64,000 bases of DNA from Proteus appendicitidis (lineage in GTDB: Bacteria; Pseudomonadota; Gammaproteobacteria; Enterobacterales; Enterobacteriaceae), in contig NZ_CP127389.1 of the NCBI RefSeq assembly GCF_030271835.1, positions 2,702,001-2,766,000 of the forward strand, given 5' to 3'. The position numbers and the translations under genes are program-made. Positions 1 through 17,871 of this stretch are shown one piece after another. How positions within the stretch are numbered: position 1 is the first letter of the stretch; each line of letters opens with the position of its first letter. The notes under the pieces are model-generated. The model saw nothing but the letters and a program-made list of their open reading frames with translations. It made no database searches and was not told the DNA's origin.

Positions 1-1260
1 TATTCTACATCAGCACTAGGGCGTGCATTTTCAGGGGAAGGCGTTATCGCCGATGACGCAAGCGTAGGTAGCCGAAACCCAGCTGCACTGACTATGTTTG
101 ATCGCCCCGAATTTTCTGTCGGTGCTATTCTCATTAACCCAGGGGTTGATGTTAAAGGTAAATCACCTCTTACAGGTACTGATACCACTGCAAAAGATAT
201 CGCACCAAGTGCATTAGTACCTAATATCCACTTTGTCGCACCTATCAATGATAAATGGGCCATTGGCGCATCAGGTACAACAAACTTTGGTTTAGCGACA
301 GATTTCCCCGACGATTATCCTGCAGGGCTTATCGGTGGGAAAACTGATTTGAAAACCATGAACCTAAACTTAAGTGCAGGTTACCGTGTAAATAACCAAT
401 TTAGCGTAGGTTTAGGGTTAAATGCTCTTTACGCTGATGCCGAAATTACTCGTCATGTGGGCGAAGCTGGTAAAGTCTTAGGTGGCGCATTATCTCAAAA
501 ACCGGGCATGGAACAATTAGGTGGTTATTTATCAAGCCTATCTCCTAGCGATCGCTTTGCTCAGTTAAAAGGTGATGCATGGGGCTTTGGCTGGAACGCA
601 GGTCTATTATACGAATTTGATGAAGGTAACCGTATTAGCTTCACTTATCGCTCTAAAGTAAAAGTGAAATTTAAAGATGGTGAGTATCAAAGCGATTTAC
701 GCCCTATTCCGCAACTCGAAGGAATGGGAATTGTCGGCACTAACGGCGAAACCATTAAAGGTAAACTTGATCTTAACCTACCTGAAATTTGGGAATTTGC
801 AGCTTACCACCGCGTCGCACCAAAATGGGCTGTTCACTATAACTTCGCTTACACCAGTTGGAGTGCGTTCGAAGAGTTAAAAGCAACACGTAAGAGCGAC
901 GGTCAACAGCTGTTTAATAAAGAAGAAGGTTTCCGTGATGCATGGCGTGTGGCTTTAGGAACAACTTATTATCACGATGATAACTGGACATTCCGTACCG
1001 GTATTGCCTTTGATGATAGCCCAGTTCCCGCTGATAAACGTTCTATTTCCATTCCAGACCAAGATCGCTTCTGGTTAAGTGCAGGTACAACTTACGCATT
1101 TAATAAAGATATGTCTGTTGATGTGGGCTTAGCCTATATGCACGGTAAAAAAGTCACAATCAAAGAGAAATTATCTGAAGATTTACCATTACCTGCTTAT
1201 GAATTTGAATCATCAGGTAAAGCATGGTTATACGGTATGAACTTTAACTACCGTTTTTAA
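1..1260 (+). CDS. fadL: Long-chain fatty acid outer-membrane transporter FadL, 5' end outside the window
   Basis: The frame is open from base 1, so the gene is cut by the window edge; 419 residues are visible. The first residues read [18 protein letters not shown], the conserved start of the mature FadL hatch region, so only the signal peptide and roughly a dozen mature residues should be missing. FadL is a 14-strand beta-barrel that binds long-chain fatty acids and passes them laterally into the outer membrane for uptake and beta-oxidation. The C-terminal half is very close to E. coli FadL, including [18 protein letters not shown] and [14 protein letters not shown], and it ends in an aromatic NYRF typical of outer-membrane barrels. 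mlaA lies downstream on the other strand, as in E. coli, but with an extra orphan gene between them. Confidence 0.95.
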
Positions 1261-1321
1261 TCTATACGCTTAATAATATTGATACAAAAATGCTCTTTTA
1301 TTTAAGAGCATTTAAACTAAT

Positions 1322-1357
1322 AAAAAACGCTCTGTTAAAAACAGAGCGTTTTTTATT
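1322..1357. terminator. Bidirectional intrinsic terminator after fadL
   Basis: Stem AACGCTCTG / CAGAGCGTT with a short A/T loop is flanked by an A-run on the left and a T-run on the right, so it can end both fadL (+) and the convergent orphan gene (-). Confidence 0.85.
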
Positions 1358-1389
1358 AGTTCGATTATAGTTAAAATAATTCTCGATAC

Positions 1390-2400
1390 TTAAAAAAGAA
1401 TAAACCAACGTTCATTATGATCGCCAACGAAAAATAGTTCTTCATTTCTAGAAATATTCTTTTTTTGATTAGCAATATGTACCGTTGAATTATATCCAGC
1501 ATTACTGGTTATATAAATTACCGCATTATCAACAGGTGCGGTTTCTGGAATATAAATATTAGGAGACCAATGTCCATCATATAATTCAATATGGATATGT
1601 TTATTTTTTTCTAACGCCTTGTTGAGTTTAGATGATGTTATATCTCTTGAATTGTGAAAATCTAATTTTGCAAAGTCATTATTTTTAATTATCTCTCTTT
1701 TCATTTTCATTGAAAGATAGCCGGGATCTGCTACATCCTCTATTTTATAAAGATAATCAATTCCCCAATCTTCTGCATGTTCTTTCCCTGAAAATGGTTG
1801 TTTAAATTCTATGGACTGATCCATAGTTCTATTCCACAGATTACCTGCAAACCATGTACAATTCGTCACAGGGGTATATACACCTTTTTCGCCATTGCCT
1901 GGGCGCATATTAAAGTTTTTTGCTATCTCCGTGCTTTCTTCATTTAATTGAGGAATAACAACATGTTCTAAGCGATTAAATTGCTCTTGAGAGATTTTTA
2001 AACAAAGTTGATAAGCAAAACCTCGAGTTGGACGATCATTACTTCTATTTTTAGTATATCCAACACCTTCATGATAGCCATATCGATGGCAATTTGAATC
2101 AGTCACATCTTTACTTTCAAAAACAATGACCCAAGCGTGTCCTAAGCTTCCTCCGCCACAAATTTGATTTAATGCAGTTACCACGGCTTTAGCTCTAGCA
2201 TTTTTATCATCGGGATAATCAGATGCTGCTTTATCGGCAATCTCACAAATAGCATCTAAATCTGTCGGCTCAGGTTTTCTATTCGATCGCAGACAAATTT
2301 GTGGATATCCTACTGTCGGATCTCCCTGTGGCATAATATATGATTCATTCTTCAAACCTGACAGTGACTTATTTAAAAAGAAACTATTAATACTACTCAT
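1390..2400 (-). CDS. Orphan two-domain protein: possible permuted papain-fold (NlpC/P60-like) domain plus C-terminal beta-rich domain
   Basis: I do not recognise this 336-residue protein as a named family. It has no signal peptide or membrane segment. His88 in GHAW comes before Cys181 in TNCTWFAGNLWN. His first, then an NC-x-x-F motif, is the order and context seen in circularly permuted papain-fold enzymes (LRAT, PPPDE, YaeF/YiiX groups), which are proteases, amidases or acyltransferases. The last 75 residues (HIHIELYDGHWSPNIYIPE onward) look like a beta-sandwich of the kind appended to secreted surface-acting proteins. I chose the ATG at 2400 because GGAG lies 9 bases upstream; an ATG 15 bases further out has no ribosome-binding site. 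The gene is isolated, with a very AT-rich upstream region, and splits fadL from mlaA, which suggests acquisition. A secreted or contact-delivered effector is one possibility, not shown. Confidence 0.6.
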   Translation of the reverse strand: MSSINSFFLNKSLSGLKNESYIMPQGDPTVGYPQICLRSNRKPEPTDLDAICEIADKAASDYPDDKNARAKAVVTALNQICGGGSLGHAWVIVFESKDVTDSNCHRYGYHEGVGYTKNRSNDRPTRGFAYQLCLKISQEQFNRLEHVVIPQLNEESTEIAKNFNMRPGNGEKGVYTPVTNCTWFAGNLWNRTMDQSIEFKQPFSGKEHAEDWGIDYLYKIEDVADPGYLSMKMKREIIKNNDFAKLDFHNSRDITSSKLNKALEKNKHIHIELYDGHWSPNIYIPETAPVDNAVIYITSNAGYNSTVHIANQKKNISRNEELFFVGDHNERWFILF

Positions 2401-2941
2401 AATTAAATACTCCATTTCATTTGGTTAAAAATTAATTAATACCAGTGATTTTACTTATTAAAATAATAACAACTAAAGTAATCAATTTATTTAACGGAAG
2501 AGTAAAGTGTTGAGGATATTAAATTACTTCAATATTTTTTTGAAGAAAACATCATGTAATAATTATCAAGATAAATCACTTACAAATAGTTAATCTATAT
2601 AATTATTATAAAAATAACTTATATCATGCTAAAAATTAAAATCAAGCATGACACTATAATTTAAATATAAAACCTTTTTAAAAAAGGCTTTAATTAACAA
2701 GCAATATTATTAATAAGATTTATCATCCGAACAATATCAATGGATAAGAATGAGTTAATAAAAATAATAATTATTTTTGAGACAATTTATTAATAATATT
2801 ATCTTTATTAAAGATAATACTTATTGTAATAATCAACAAAACTCTGTTGAAAAAATAGGATAAAAATATGTTTTTTCACTCGGTATTATTCAATTTGAAA
2901 TCAGTAAATTAGTTTTTCATATCTATGAAAAATAATGTAAT
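2401..2941. other. Long AT-rich gene-free region upstream of the orphan gene
   Basis: About 540 bases, mostly A/T homopolymer-like text, between the start of the orphan gene and the hairpins behind mlaA. I see no open frame of note and no recognisable operator. It must carry the promoter of the orphan gene. Such composition attracts H-NS-type silencing in enterobacteria, which is inference here. Confidence 0.5.
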
Positions 2942-2976
2942 GACTGTAACCAAACACAATTTGTTCGGTTACAGTC
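2942..2976. repeat. 15-bp inverted repeat next to the mlaA terminator
   Basis: GACTGTAACCAAACA and TGTTCGGTTACAGTC are complementary over 15 positions with one mismatch, separated by five bases. It forms a hairpin immediately beyond the mlaA terminator, giving two hairpins in tandem. Neither side has a strong T-run, so it may protect a transcript 3' end or bind a protein. Confidence 0.6.
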
Positions 2977-2977
2977 T

Positions 2978-3003
2978 AAATGGTCTGTTTTCAGACCATT
3001 TTT
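2978..3003. terminator. Intrinsic terminator of mlaA
   Basis: AAATGGTCTG / CAGACCATTT stem with a four-base loop 28 bases after the mlaA stop codon. The A-run preceding it on the plus strand reads as a short U-tract for minus-strand transcripts. Confidence 0.75.
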
Positions 3004-3031
3004 CATTTATACATAAAACGAGTAGCAACGA

Positions 3032-3769
3032 TTAGTCAATGGAATCTAAATCATCTTCAATTGCTTTTGCGTTAGGGTTCTCTTTTACCGTGCCAGCTTT
3101 GAAGTCATTACTCTGGAAGTAAGCTTCACGCATCATTAAGTAAGGATCAGAAGAATTTTGTAAAATCGCATCTGAATCTAGCAATTGCGCTCGTGTTTCA
3201 ATGCCTTCTAATGCCCACTTACCTGCTGACATCCAAAATGTTAAATAGCTCAGCATAGGATAGGTTAAGTCAGCCCAATCACCACCTTCTTCACGAACAG
3301 TAAAGCTACCATAGCCTGGTACAACAACATAAGGACCGTAATCCATACCATAATGCCCTAATGTGCTACCAAATCGCATTGGGACTTCTTTTTCCATCGT
3401 CTCTTTAGACATGCCAGCAACATCTATTAAGCCGCCCATACCAAAAACGGTATTGATCCAGAAACGACCAAAATGTTTTGCACCCTTTTCAAAATCACCA
3501 CGTAATATGCTGTTTACCATACTTGCAGGCTCTTCTAAATTACCCAAAAAGTTAGATAAGCCATTTCTTGCTGGTGGCGGCACATAATCACGCCAAACAA
3601 CGGCAACTGGGCGTAAGATATAGGGGTCTAAAACATAGTAGTTAAAATCAAACATCTGGCGGTTAAACCCTTCTAATGGGTCAGAGCGCCCCTCCCCATT
3701 ATTAGAGGTACTTGCACATCCTGAAAGTAAGGCGACTGAAAGAGCAACACCGCACAGGCGATACTTCAT
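3032..3769 (-). CDS. mlaA: Phospholipid-retrograde-transport lipoprotein MlaA (VacJ)
   Basis: 245 residues with a lipoprotein signal peptide ending in LLSGC (lipidated Cys18). MlaA sits in the outer membrane with OmpC/OmpF, removes mislocalised phospholipids from the outer leaflet and hands them to periplasmic MlaC for return through MlaFEDB. The family core is visible: DPLEGFNRQMFDFNYYVLDPYILRP near residue 31, the NxLGNLEEPASMVN segment, and GHYGMDYGPYVVVPGYGSFTVRE. Length is close to the E. coli protein (251). The start is preceded by GGAG. It is a single-gene unit with its own terminator. Placement beside fadL is the same as in E. coli. Confidence 0.95.
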   Translation of the reverse strand: MKYRLCGVALSVALLSGCASTSNNGEGRSDPLEGFNRQMFDFNYYVLDPYILRPVAVVWRDYVPPPARNGLSNFLGNLEEPASMVNSILRGDFEKGAKHFGRFWINTVFGMGGLIDVAGMSKETMEKEVPMRFGSTLGHYGMDYGPYVVVPGYGSFTVREEGGDWADLTYPMLSYLTFWMSAGKWALEGIETRAQLLDSDAILQNSSDPYLMMREAYFQSNDFKAGTVKENPNAKAIEDDLDSID

Positions 3770-5217: not shown

Positions 5218-6021
5218 ATGACACTCTGGCTGATTTCTTTTGGTTTAATTTCAGGCATCACAACATGGTTATTTGGCTTTGGTGGTGGCTTTGTCACTGT
5301 TCCCTTACTCTATACACTTATTCTTACACTTTGGGGAATAGACAGTTTACCTGCTGAACATGCAATGCAAATCGCGGTTGCTACCTCTGCATTAATTATG
5401 TTGTTTTCTGCGACAGTCACAACTATTAAACACCATAAAGCAAAAAGGCTTGATTGGAATATCATGTCCATTCTATTTATTGGTATCGCTTTTGGTGGGA
5501 TTTTAGGTGCGCTTCTCGCCTTAATGGTTGAAGGTGTGTGGATCAAGTGGATCTTTATTGGTTATCTTTTTGTCACTATTTTAGATTGCTATTTTCGCCC
5601 CGGTTTTATGGCTCCTACTCACAACGCAAAAAAAGTAACCAAAGTAAAAGAAAGCATTAATGGAACAGTGATTGGTATTATTGCTGCTTTCCTAGGGGTT
5701 GGTGGAAGTGTGATGACAGTCCCTTTATTGCGCCGTAGAGGAACACCAATGGCACAGTCAGCAGCAATGGCGAACGCACTAACCTTACCTTTAGCGCTCA
5801 CTGCAACATTCACTTATATCACTCTTTCTTTTACGTCACCTTTAAATAGTGAATCTGGGTTTATTGGTTATATTTGGCTAAAAGCTGCACTTATTCTGAT
5901 TTGTAGCACTTGGGTTGGTTTGAAGATCTCTGAACGCTTTTTATCTCGTATTCCCGACAAATGGCATGCAAGAGTTTATCCTCTGTTACTGAGTCTTGTT
6001 TTAGTTGTCATGCTATTTTAA
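5218..6021 (+). CDS. TauE/SafE-family membrane permease (sulfite/organic anion exporter family)
   Basis: 267 residues, almost all hydrophobic, with about eight predicted membrane helices. Two internally related halves are visible: FGFGGGFVTVPLLYTL near residue 20 and FLGVGGSVMTVPLLRRRGTPMAQSAAMANAL near residue 160, the diagnostic repeated glycine-rich motif of the TauE/SafE (DUF81) family. Members export sulfite, sulfoacetate or other small organic anions; the substrate here cannot be read from sequence. AGGAG lies seven bases before the ATG. The divergent AraC regulator is probably its controller. Confidence 0.85.
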   Translation: MTLWLISFGLISGITTWLFGFGGGFVTVPLLYTLILTLWGIDSLPAEHAMQIAVATSALIMLFSATVTTIKHHKAKRLDWNIMSILFIGIAFGGILGALLALMVEGVWIKWIFIGYLFVTILDCYFRPGFMAPTHNAKKVTKVKESINGTVIGIIAAFLGVGGSVMTVPLLRRRGTPMAQSAAMANALTLPLALTATFTYITLSFTSPLNSESGFIGYIWLKAALILICSTWVGLKISERFLSRIPDKWHARVYPLLLSLVLVVMLF

Positions 6022-6902
6022 ATCGTATCTTTTATGTAGAAGATACCAAGACAATAAACAACGAAAAAACAATAATGGCTACACATAAAATATGTGGCAA
6101 ATGGTGGTTTTGAGTGTTCAAAAAACTGCCATTTTTTTAACATTTCCCCCATATTTTTCCTACGTATCTTCATTTAGCCTTAATGCTATTAAGACACATA
6201 AAACAAAAAATATCTCTTTTTGACAATCACGATACAGTTCCATAACTATTAATATCATTAATTAATATTAAAACATAATGAATAATAATTTATAAATTGT
6301 CTCGTATTTAGTATCAGTCTGTTTACGTTTAATTGAGCATTTTTCGTACCATTAATCACCGATTTATTTTTCTTTTTTATTTGTATTTATTATCAAAATA
6401 ATAAGTTAGCTATTTTTATAAGAAGATAATTCAAGAAAAAACTGGATTTAAATAGCATCAAAAATATTATTTATTCTGATTTTTAAATAACAAATTAATT
6501 ACAATAAAATCAACCTTCGATATATAAATAATTATATATCGGTTGGATTTTTTGTCAAATTTTAATTATTATTAATCATATATTTTAAATACACTTTAAT
6601 AAAATGGATTAATGAGATAAGTTAGTGAATTTAAAAGAACAAACAGTAACTTCGGCATCCCTTAAAATCCCCTACTCCTTCTCCAAACTTTTATAATAGT
6701 ATTTAATAGAAGAAAATAATTATCATTTAATTTTGTCTATTTTAGTTAATTTATTTAGTGACATTTATTAACTTCTTATTCTCTATTATTTATTATTTAC
6801 AACTAACTCATCACTTATGGATTAATAAAATGGAGACACCTTCAAATATTTATTTAATCGTCCGTATATAATATTTAGCTATAAGAAGAAACTGGAGGTT
6901 AT
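6022..6902. other. Extended AT-rich upstream region of phsABC
   Basis: 880 bases without a gene. It must contain the phs promoter. I found no clear FNR (TTGAT-N4-ATCAA) or CRP box by eye. The one distinct structure is the hairpin at 6511-6545. GGAGG lies five bases ahead of the phsA ATG at the right edge. The length and low GC fit a regulatory region open to nucleoid proteins, which is inference. Confidence 0.5.
6511..6551 (+). terminator. Hairpin followed by T-run inside the phs upstream region
   Basis: CAACC(TT)CGATATATAA pairs with TTATATATCGGTTG, with a two-base bulge and a short loop, and is followed by GATTTTTTG. It could end tauE read-through or an unannotated leader RNA. The stem is AT-rich, so the call is tentative. 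Confidence 0.45.
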
Positions 6903-9182
6903 ATGAGTATTAGTCGTCGTTCTTTTATTAAGGGGATGGGGATAGGATGTGTAGGTTGTACCGTGAGTAGTTTACCACCGGGTGCGCTTGCATTTAATCC
7001 TGTAGATTCTCTTAAGGGTCAGTCCAAATTAACACCTAGTCTGTGTGAAATGTGTTCTTATCGTTGCCCGATAGAAGCTCAGGTTGTTAACAACAAGACT
7101 GTTTTTATCCAAGGAAATAGAAATGCAGAGCACCAGAGTAGCCGAGTTTGTGCAAGAGGGGGAAGTGGCGTTAGCCTAGTTAATGATCCAAACCGGATTG
7201 TCAAACCTATGAAACACAAAGGTCCTAGAGGGGCTGGTGAATGGGAAGTGATAAGCTGGGAACAAGCTTATCAAGAAATTGCAGAAAAAATGAACGCCAT
7301 AAAACAAAATTATGGTGCAGAAAGTATCTCTTTTTCATCTAAATCAGGTTCACTCTCTTCTCACCTTTTCCATTTAGCTACTGCCTTTGGTTCACCGAAC
7401 ACGTTTACACATGCATCGACTTGCCCTGCGGGTAAAGCCATTGCAGCATCAGTGATGATGGGCGGTGATCTTGCAATGGATTTAGCAAATTCTAAATATA
7501 TTCTCTCTTTCGGTCATAACCTTTATGAAGGTATTGAAGTCGCTGAAACACACGAACTAATGACCGCTCAAGAGCGCGGTGCAAAACTAGTCAGTTTTGA
7601 CCCTCGTTTATCTGTCGTTTCAAGTAAAGCTGATGAGTGGTTTGCAATCCGCCCAGGTGGAGATTTACCTGTTCTAATGGCAATGTGCCATATTTTAATT
7701 AAAGAAGATCTCTACAATAAAGATTTCGTTGAGAAATTTACGGTTGGCTTCCCACAATTAAAAGACGTTCTACAAGATACAACACCTGAATGGGCCGAAG
7801 CTCATTCTGATGTTCCCGCTAAAGATATTGTTCGTATCGCACGCGAAATAGCAGCAAAAGCACCTCATGCACTGATTATGCCTGGTCACCGCGCAACCTT
7901 TAATAAAGAAGAGATCAATATGCGCAGAATGATCTTCACCTTCAATGCCTTACTTGGCAACATTGAACGTGAAGGCGGTATGTATCAGAAAAAAGCAGCG
8001 TCAAAATACAATAAATTAGCGGGCATTAATGTTGCTCCTGAATTAGCGAAACCAAGCGTTAAAGGTATGCCTGAAATTACGGCAAAACGCATTGATGCAA
8101 CAGCACCTCAATTTAAATACATCAATAAAGGTGGTGGTGTTGTTCAATCGATTATTGATTCAACTTTAGAGGGTGTACCGTATCAAACAAAAGCATGGAT
8201 TATGTCCCGTCACAATCCATTCCAAACAGTCAGTTGTCGCCCAGAGTTAGAAAAAGCAGCACAGAAATTAGATTTAATTGTTAGCTGCGATGTTTATTTA
8301 AGTGAAAGTGCTGCTTATGCAGATTATCTGTTACCTGAAACCACTTATTTAGAGCGTGATGAAGAGATTTCTGATGTTTCAGGTTTAAACCCAGCTTATG
8401 CATTACGCCAGCAAGTTGTCGAACCTATTGGTGATACTAAACCAAGTTGGTTAATTTGGATGGAATTAGGTAAAGCATTAGGATTAGAAGCCTATTTCCC
8501 TTGGGAAAACATGGGAGTAAGACAGCTATATCAAGTTAATGGTAGCGAAGAACTTTATAAAGAGATGCATAAAAAAGGTTATATCTCTTATGGTGTTCCA
8601 CTATTATTACGTGAGCCTTCTTATGTAAAAGCCTTTGTTGAGCAATATCCAGATGCAATTAAGCATGTTGATAGCAACAATACAATGGAAAAAGCCCTCT
8701 CCTTTAAATCACCAAGTGGCTTAATTGAAATCTACTCTGAAGAATTAGAAAGCCGTTTAGAAAACTATGGTATTCCGCGCTTCCACAACTTCCCATTAAA
8801 AGAAAAAGACGAGCTTTATTTTATCCAAGGTAAAGTCGCCGTTCATACTAATGGTGCAACACAATACGTACCATTATTAGCTGAATTAATGTGGAAAAAC
8901 CCTGTTTGGCTTCACCCTGAAACAGCGAAAAACCATGGAATTAAACATGGTGATGAAATCATTCTGGAAAACAGTATAGGCAAAGAAAAAGCACATGCTT
9001 TGATCACTGAAGGCATTCGCCCTGACACGGTATTTGTTTATATGGGATCAGGTGCAAAAGCAGGTGCGAGAACAGCCGCAACTACAACAGGCGTTCACTG
9101 TGGCAACTTATTGCCTCATGAAATTAGCCCTGTATCAGGTACTGATGTGCATACATCAGGTGTCAGAATTAGTCGGGCTTAA
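6903..9182 (+). CDS. phsA: Thiosulfate reductase catalytic subunit PhsA (molybdopterin, Tat-exported)
   Basis: 759 residues, the same size as Salmonella PhsA. The N-terminus SRRSFIKG is a twin-arginine export signal ending near ALA30. A [4Fe-4S] motif follows: Cys48, Cys51, Cys55 and Cys83. STCPAGKA places Cys174 where PhsA/PsrA enzymes ligate molybdenum. The rest is the molybdopterin oxidoreductase fold and the C-terminal dinucleotide-binding domain (about 640-759). The enzyme uses menaquinol electrons to cleave thiosulfate to sulfide and sulfite in the periplasm under anaerobiosis. It is first in phsABC, 14 bases from phsB. Polysulfide reductase (PsrA) is the main alternative; overall similarity and gene order favour thiosulfate. 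Confidence 0.9.
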
Positions 9183-17125: not shown

Positions 17126-17201
17126 TGGTGGGCGGTATTGGGCTCGAACCAACGACCTCCTCCTTGTAAGGGAGATGCTCTACCAACTGAGCTAACCGCC
17201 C
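17126..17201 (-). tRNA. tRNA-Val (TAC), last gene of the Val/Lys operon
   Basis: Complete 76-base cloverleaf with encoded CCA; anticodon loop CTTACAA gives TAC. It is identical to the three Val copies at the head of the operon. Being last and after three Lys genes, it breaks the simple Val-Val-Val-Lys order known from E. coli. Confidence 0.97.
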
Positions 17202-17215
17202 GCTTGATTATTAAA

Positions 17216-17291
17216 TGGTGGGTCGTGGGCGATTCGAACGCCCGACCAATTGATTAAAAGTCAACTGCTCTACCGACTGAGCTAACGACCC
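17216..17291 (-). tRNA. tRNA-Lys (TTT)
   Basis: 76 bases, GGGTCGTTAGCTC start, anticodon loop CTTTTAA (TTT), encoded CCA. It lies 14 bases before the last Val gene in the direction of transcription. Confidence 0.97.
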
Positions 17292-17331
17292 ATTTAATAA
17301 TTTTGCGTAAATCTATAAGTAGCTTTGTGAA

Positions 17332-17407
17332 TGGTGGGTCGTGGGCGATTCGAACGCCCGACCAATTGATTAAAAGTCAACTGCTCTACCGACTGAGCTA
17401 ACGACCC
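17332..17407 (-). tRNA. tRNA-Lys (TTT)
   Basis: 76 bases, identical to the neighbouring Lys genes and with encoded CCA. The 40-base spacer to the next copy differs, so only the gene bodies are kept identical. Confidence 0.97.
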
Positions 17408-17445
17408 GTCACAATGTTCACTACTTTATGTTGTATTTTTAGGAA

Positions 17446-17521
17446 TGGTGGGTCGTGGGCGATTCGAACGCCCGACCAATTGATTAAAAGTCAACTGCTC
17501 TACCGACTGAGCTAACGACCC
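17446..17521 (-). tRNA. tRNA-Lys (TTT)
   Basis: 76 bases, first of the three identical Lys copies in transcription order, following the three leading Val genes as lysV follows valUXY in E. coli. Confidence 0.97.
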
Positions 17522-17562
17522 ATACCTAAATTTGTGATATTGCGCGAAATAACCGGATGAAG

Positions 17563-17638
17563 TGGTGGGCGGTATTGGGCTCGAACCAACGACCTCCTCC
17601 TTGTAAGGGAGATGCTCTACCAACTGAGCTAACCGCCC
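17563..17638 (-). tRNA. tRNA-Val (TAC)
   Basis: 76 bases, anticodon TAC, encoded CCA; third gene of the operon, corresponding in position to E. coli valY. Confidence 0.97.
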
Positions 17639-17681
17639 ACTTCATGATGACTAAATTCTCACTACCACGCTTTAATGTAAT

Positions 17682-17757
17682 TGGTGGGCGGTATTGGGCT
17701 CGAACCAACGACCTCCTCCTTGTAAGGGAGATGCTCTACCAACTGAGCTAACCGCCC
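17682..17757 (-). tRNA. tRNA-Val (TAC)
   Basis: 76 bases, anticodon TAC, encoded CCA; second gene of the operon, corresponding in position to E. coli valX. Confidence 0.97.
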
Positions 17758-17795
17758 AATTACACTAAATCATACAACTATCACAACGAAAATAA

Positions 17796-17871
17796 TGGTG
17801 GGCGGTATTGGGCTCGAACCAACGACCTCCTCCTTGTAAGGGAGATGCTCTACCAACTGAGCTAACCGCCC
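17796..17871 (-). tRNA. tRNA-Val (TAC), first gene of the operon
   Basis: 76 bases, anticodon TAC, encoded CCA; promoter-proximal, corresponding in position to E. coli valU, divergent from gltX. Confidence 0.97.

Follow-up and report, generated by a model that had tools for sequence, protein, structure and literature searches.

What is encoded by a gene that lies between fadL and mlaA in Proteus appendicitidis, and how did it come to be there? The gene occupies nt 1390–2400 (minus strand) of the window, the 64,000-nt stretch analysed here (contig NZ_CP127389.1 of assembly GCF_030271835.1, nt 2,702,001–2,766,000 of the forward strand; coordinates below are window positions). It is horizontally acquired, and its product joins an N-terminal domain of permuted papain-like (NlpC/P60-type) fold, as supported by structure prediction, to a C-terminal beta-sandwich of the kind present in StcE and CpaA. 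Fold class, conserved His-Cys dyad, sandwich and mobility were all computed. The function that we tentatively favour, at somewhat less than an even chance, is that of a mobile, glycan-anchored, two-module thiol hydrolase or acyltransferase, extracellular and most likely directed at acyl bonds, with both substrate and export predicted.

In the open reading frame (ORF) list of the window, the minus-strand frame is open from nt 2415 to 1390, giving 341 residues from its first start codon. A second ATG, at nt 2400, yields 336 residues plus the stop codon; it is preceded 9 nt upstream by GGAG (nt 2410–2413, minus strand), which reads as a likely ribosome-binding site, and its numbering, that of the first-pass annotation, is used here. 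The gene has a G+C content of 33.9% (20.8% at third positions) relative to 38.1% for the window and 19.6% for the 577 bp upstream, in agreement with the AT-rich setting noted earlier. It had also been called an orphan, a label that no longer holds: three protein searches against 5.8 billion sequences yielded 21, 75 and 14 hits, or 86 distinct identifiers, and these relatives, together with conservation over the full length, rule out an orphan or spurious ORF.

The N-terminal domain (residues 20–236; nt 1693–2343, minus strand) was modelled with high confidence (predicted local distance difference test score, pLDDT, 95.7; predicted template modelling score, pTM, 0.92), and its standout structural neighbours in the PDB are all permuted papain-like proteins of the NlpC/P60 type: TseH, YiiX, a Bacillus cereus enzyme, Aichivirus 2A and CLN5. 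His88 of the GHAW motif (nt 2137–2139, minus strand), the predicted catalytic base, heads strand 89–94, and Cys181 of TNCTWFAGNLWN (nt 1858–1860, minus strand), the predicted nucleophile, starts helix 181–193. The first-pass annotation had proposed a permuted papain-fold order from these two motifs and had called for structure prediction and fold comparison, both of which came out in its favour. Foldseek searches with the domain gave a best E of 0.14 against the PDB (proteasome) and of 0.035 against viral models, the latter to a virophage protein named DUF4105. Model, neighbours and alignment place the protein in the permuted papain-like superfamily at the level of fold only.

Conservation was assessed in an alignment of 74 rows, consisting of the window's N-terminal domain and 73 of the 79 relatives then known. 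Every row retains His88, Cys181, Trp90, Trp183, Tyr32-Pro33-Gln34, Arg38, Gly84, Gly87, Ser156 and Gly227, and His, Cys and Trp are also invariant in a 10-row alignment with seven further divergent proteins. Since the His and Cys are invariant in 74/74 rows, their motifs are not a chance match. Six identifiers lie outside the alignment. Both residues persist in the near-identical P0002 and in the truncated P0017 and P0051; two Arsenophonus fragments, P0074 and P0077, still have the Cys, with Tyr replacing His88, and P0080 has neither motif. The Arsenophonus symbiont of Aleurodicus floccissimus carries a copy split across reading frames (locus L002, nt 8001–8702); this frameshift and the His88-to-Tyr fragments make it seem, from sequence, that reduced endosymbionts are losing the gene. 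Only the His88/Cys181 dyad is firm, because the candidate third catalytic residue, His110, is present in 64 of the 74 rows and missing from the marine proteins. Its variability would suit a non-catalytic binding protein that merely retains the fold, but the dyad is invariant over highly divergent rows, and LRAT may be able to do without a third residue (PMC3142127), so that loss of catalysis is considered very unlikely. Cys133 is always accompanied by Cys36 (35/35 rows), while 12 rows have Cys36 alone; the pair may form a disulfide, although the split tracks lineage, which confounds the pattern.

By sequence profile the domain stands apart from named families. Residues 1–236 have no match in Pfam, NCBIfam, PHROGs or PADLOC, and in none of these databases was the full-length protein confidently assigned to some unrelated family; the PADLOC and PHROGs scans, each run with four family proteins including that of the window, produced nothing convincing. 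The profile search suggested in the first-pass annotation (NlpC/P60, LRAT, PPPDE) came back empty: the window protein has no Pfam match to LRAT, PPPDE, canonical NLPC_P60 or DUF6695 at E up to 10, and none of the four is among the 25 Pfam families listed for the 74-member profile (weakest E 0.27). A DUF6695 scan of 114 genomes gave no hit, its controls likewise, and so carries no weight either way. Peptidase_C92, the family of the YaeF/YiiX-like enzymes (PDB 2if6, 3kw0), is likewise absent from those 25 (hhalign P 0.83), as is Lnb_N/DUF4105, which aligns weakly across the Cys motif without reaching significance (hhalign P 0.21). One source calls P0085 'DUF4105 domain-containing', yet it has no DUF4105 Pfam match at E up to 10. 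Against PDB sequences the family profile reached a best E of 0.17, which is chance level. Where members are named by their sources they are hypothetical proteins, and a search of the open-licence literature found no published description. The proteins are an unnamed new family within a known superfamily, with a new combination of modules.

Permuted NlpC/P60 enzymes have recently been linked to attack on lipids in bacterial competition, according to PMC12994826, and TseH (VCA0285; PDB 6v98; DUF6695 clade) is an effector of the type VI secretion system. The Tox-Act1 and Lnb/DUF4105 clades likewise have a permuted core with an essential His and Cys, and their reported substrates are lipids. By analogy, the window protein could serve against other bacteria, as an effector that a type VI or another secretion system delivers to harm the membranes or peptidoglycan of rivals. 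It differs from TseH, with which its family shares no sequence-profile match, in carrying the beta-sandwich, in having Gram-positive relatives with a leader, and in lacking a neighbouring immunity gene or secretion locus: no ORF of at least 50 residues adjoins it that might encode immunity (nt 1261–1389 and 2416–3031), and no secretion-system gene was seen in the neighbourhoods read, a reading made by eye in which most genes were not profiled. Such a role is therefore judged improbable.

The C-terminal module (residues 243–336; nt 1393–1674, minus strand) matches PF20944, StcE_b-sandwich, over residues 269–333 (E 8.3e-12; 45.4 bits against a cut-off of 27), the sole Pfam family found in the protein. 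Comparison with PDB sequences matched StcE (3ujz, 4dny) and, weakly, CpaA. With a score above the curated cut-off and the corresponding fold, the module belongs to this family, and the beta-rich, appended binding-type domain suspected earlier takes shape as an StcE/CpaA-type sandwich, for which glycan binding is predicted. StcE and CpaA are secreted O-glycoproteases, but the window protein has no zinc metalloprotease domain: HExxH does not occur in its 336 residues, and no metzincin match exceeds the cut-off in Pfam or NCBIfam. An StcE-type metalloprotease is ruled out by the missing HExxH.

The sole annotated domain of the window protein is nevertheless the one it has in common with StcE and CpaA, and because it shares this tail, cleavage of glycoproteins is kept as the main rival to acyl-bond chemistry. 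The protein would then be a thiol mucinase, a cysteine peptidase acting on O-glycosylated proteins: its sandwich would bind glycans of the mucin type, as has been proposed for StcE and CpaA, and its papain-like domain would cut the peptide. Two points weaken this proposal from the side of the module: the same sandwich fold is structural in phage baseplates and tailspikes (PMC8825819), and in this family it is confined to the window's clade (4 of the 74 rows, plus the near-identical P0002), so that the substrate of the family at large cannot be read from it. A third comes from the fold, since the characterised permuted relatives act on lipids. We regard a thiol peptidase of this kind as rather unlikely.

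How the gene reached its position is indicated by the sister species. The gap between fadL and mlaA measures 75–85 bp and lacks the gene in 19/19 other species of the genus, against 1771 bp in the window, which bears out the earlier remark that the gene interrupts this neighbourhood. The empty site in 19/19 sister species shows a recent insertion and rules out an ordinary lipid gene tied to fadL/mlaA. A survey of presence and absence across the genus, also proposed earlier, found the N-terminal domain in one of 20 genomes, that of the window, and the same genome holds the only PF20944 match of any kind. The segment absent from the sister species spans approximately nt 1261–2977, its left end uncertain by tens of bases, and the 1771-bp gap comprises the gene and the 577 bp of 19.6% G+C (nt 2401–2977), a stretch with no ORF of at least 50 residues. 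Neither a target-site duplication nor a mobile element could be recognised at the insertion, and predicted promoters within nt 1200–3100 (15, versus 13.1 in shuffled sequence) are not above expectation. On the mlaA side, a terminator-like hairpin (nt 2978–3001, plus strand) is also present in most of the short sister gaps that were read. Elsewhere in the window, a second AT-rich intergenic stretch (nt 6001–6750; G+C 0.19–0.23 per 500 bp) is as rich in AT as that upstream of the gene, and seven minus-strand tRNA genes (four Val, three Lys; nt 17126–17871) form an ordinary cluster.

Carriage is sparse, with the domain in 3 of 394 Enterobacterales genomes, and the relatives are widely spread. They come from Enterobacterales, Vibrionaceae, Bacillus, Enterococcus, Lactococcus and other groups, and among the names supplied by sources are Klebsiella, Cedecea, Serratia, Hafnia, Pectobacterium, Yersinia, Xenorhabdus, Arsenophonus, Utexia, Erwinia amylovora, Aeromonas, Chromobacterium, Mycetohabitans, Acinetobacter, Photobacterium, Aliivibrio, Vibrio cholerae, Bacillus cereus, Bacillus thuringiensis, Enterococcus, Lactococcus, Lactobacillus and Listeria; many of the 86 have no source name. 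The full two-module layout recurs in P0002–P0005, while the remaining relatives lack the sandwich or have other tails. Fusions within the family involve the StcE sandwich, GH16 (glycoside hydrolase family 16), Big_3 and hemopexin, the GH16 fusion being P0016, a metagenomic protein from short contigs. The marine Vibrionaceae-type proteins P0078, P0079 and P0083–P0087 have in common some 200 C-terminal residues for which Pfam offers no convincing match.

Mobility is also seen in the 22 neighbourhoods that were read: the window, 14 genome-contig loci, two Enterococcus plasmids, four of the five IMG/VR loci that carry the gene, and one further genome region. Four of the 22 are phage lysis or late regions. 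In three of these (L045, L046 and L047), copies 97–100% identical to the Hafnia protein P0013 lie behind the holin, endolysin and Rz-like spanin genes of different phages, directly after Rz in L045 and L047 and with one ORF intervening in L046. In the fourth (L049), a more distant copy, downstream of both endolysin and Rz, is flanked by a baseplate gene and the tail-sheath gene. Profiles confirmed the endolysin label in L045, L047 and L049, Rz in L045 and L049, holin and terminase in L045, and baseplate and sheath in L049; the remaining labels were read by eye. This recurrence in three phage backgrounds would suit an accessory lysis enzyme, hydrolysing peptidoglycan or the envelope and later captured by chromosomes. 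But 18 of the 22 neighbourhoods are non-phage, no cultured phage has it, with no match among 50,697 phage records, and many relatives come with a leader and binding modules of their own, which makes an origin as a lysis enzyme highly unlikely. A phage gene in the window itself was rejected, there being no phage-record match and nothing convincing in the PADLOC and PHROGs scans.

The route of export appears to differ within the family. By a simple hydrophobicity rule, 29 of the 74 rows have a Sec-like leader, Gram-positive members among them; the same crude rule finds none in the window protein. In the 74-row tree the window falls within a clade of 15 leaderless Gram-negative proteins (support 100/99), and the leader-bearing rows lie elsewhere.

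Several neighbourhoods place the gene beside glycan-active partners. A lytic polysaccharide monooxygenase (LPMO_10) gene lies within 2 kb in two of the 22, in Moellerella (241 bp) and on the conjugative E. faecium plasmid pEfm12493 (1.8 kb), and a GH16 gene adjoins in two, Pectobacterium and Moellerella; the nearest PDB matches of these GH16 proteins are beta-1,3-glucanases. In Lactococcus, a lectin/Big_3 surface protein is encoded 66 bp upstream. No LPMO, GH16 or lectin partner was seen in the others of the 22. LPMO occurs somewhere in three of six genomes or records with the gene, but as it is found in 20/20 genomes of the genus and 49/197 of the order, co-presence means little and adjacency is the argument. 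GH16 occurs in 54/197 genomes of the order and is absent from the window's genome. The adjacency to LPMO and GH16 is suggestive, not proof. The same partners would also suit a peptidase for O-glycosylated proteins, as would the breakdown of the peritrophic matrix by LPMO and a protease described for Melissococcus in PMC6116112.

The relatives on the two conjugative Enterococcus plasmids (L036, nt 5426–8672; L044, nt 7887–8711) have either a Sec-like leader or a comparable hydrophobic stretch at the N terminus, and one of them stands behind an LPMO gene, near a transposase. A Pfam scan of the 950-residue protein encoded upstream on the E. faecium plasmid came back empty. On a Lactococcus lactis plasmid, a partial relative lies near transposase genes of the Tn3 family (L037, nt 6001–6294).

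For the glycan-anchored thiol hydrolase or acyltransferase, the following course is envisaged. His88 would activate Cys181 for attack on a carbonyl, and the resulting thioester intermediate would be resolved by water or another acceptor, while the sandwich would anchor the enzyme on a glycosylated surface such as mucus, insect peritrophic matrix, or a fungal or bacterial envelope. The likeliest target would be an acyl bond, whether of a phospholipid, a lipoprotein or a lipid-linked glycan, a choice favoured because lipids are the substrates of the characterised permuted relatives. Those members that have a Sec-like leader would be secreted; leaderless members probably exit by another route, lysis being the obvious one for phage-borne copies.

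In a wider reading that we hold possible but doubtful, this unnamed family is a mobile extracellular toolkit common to Gram-negative and Gram-positive bacteria, many of which live in association with insects, nematodes or fungi. Its catalytic domain would be aimed at glycan-rich barriers by swappable modules (StcE sandwich, hemopexin, Big_3, GH16), with LPMO, laminarinase-like GH16 and lectin as partner genes. The leaderless Gram-negative enzyme, where phage-borne copies lie behind a lysis cassette, might be delivered onto the surface of host or prey by prophage lysis, by analogy with Shiga toxin phages. The family would carry the permuted NlpC/P60 fold into extracellular roles directed by glycan-binding modules, across two phyla and on phages as well as plasmids.
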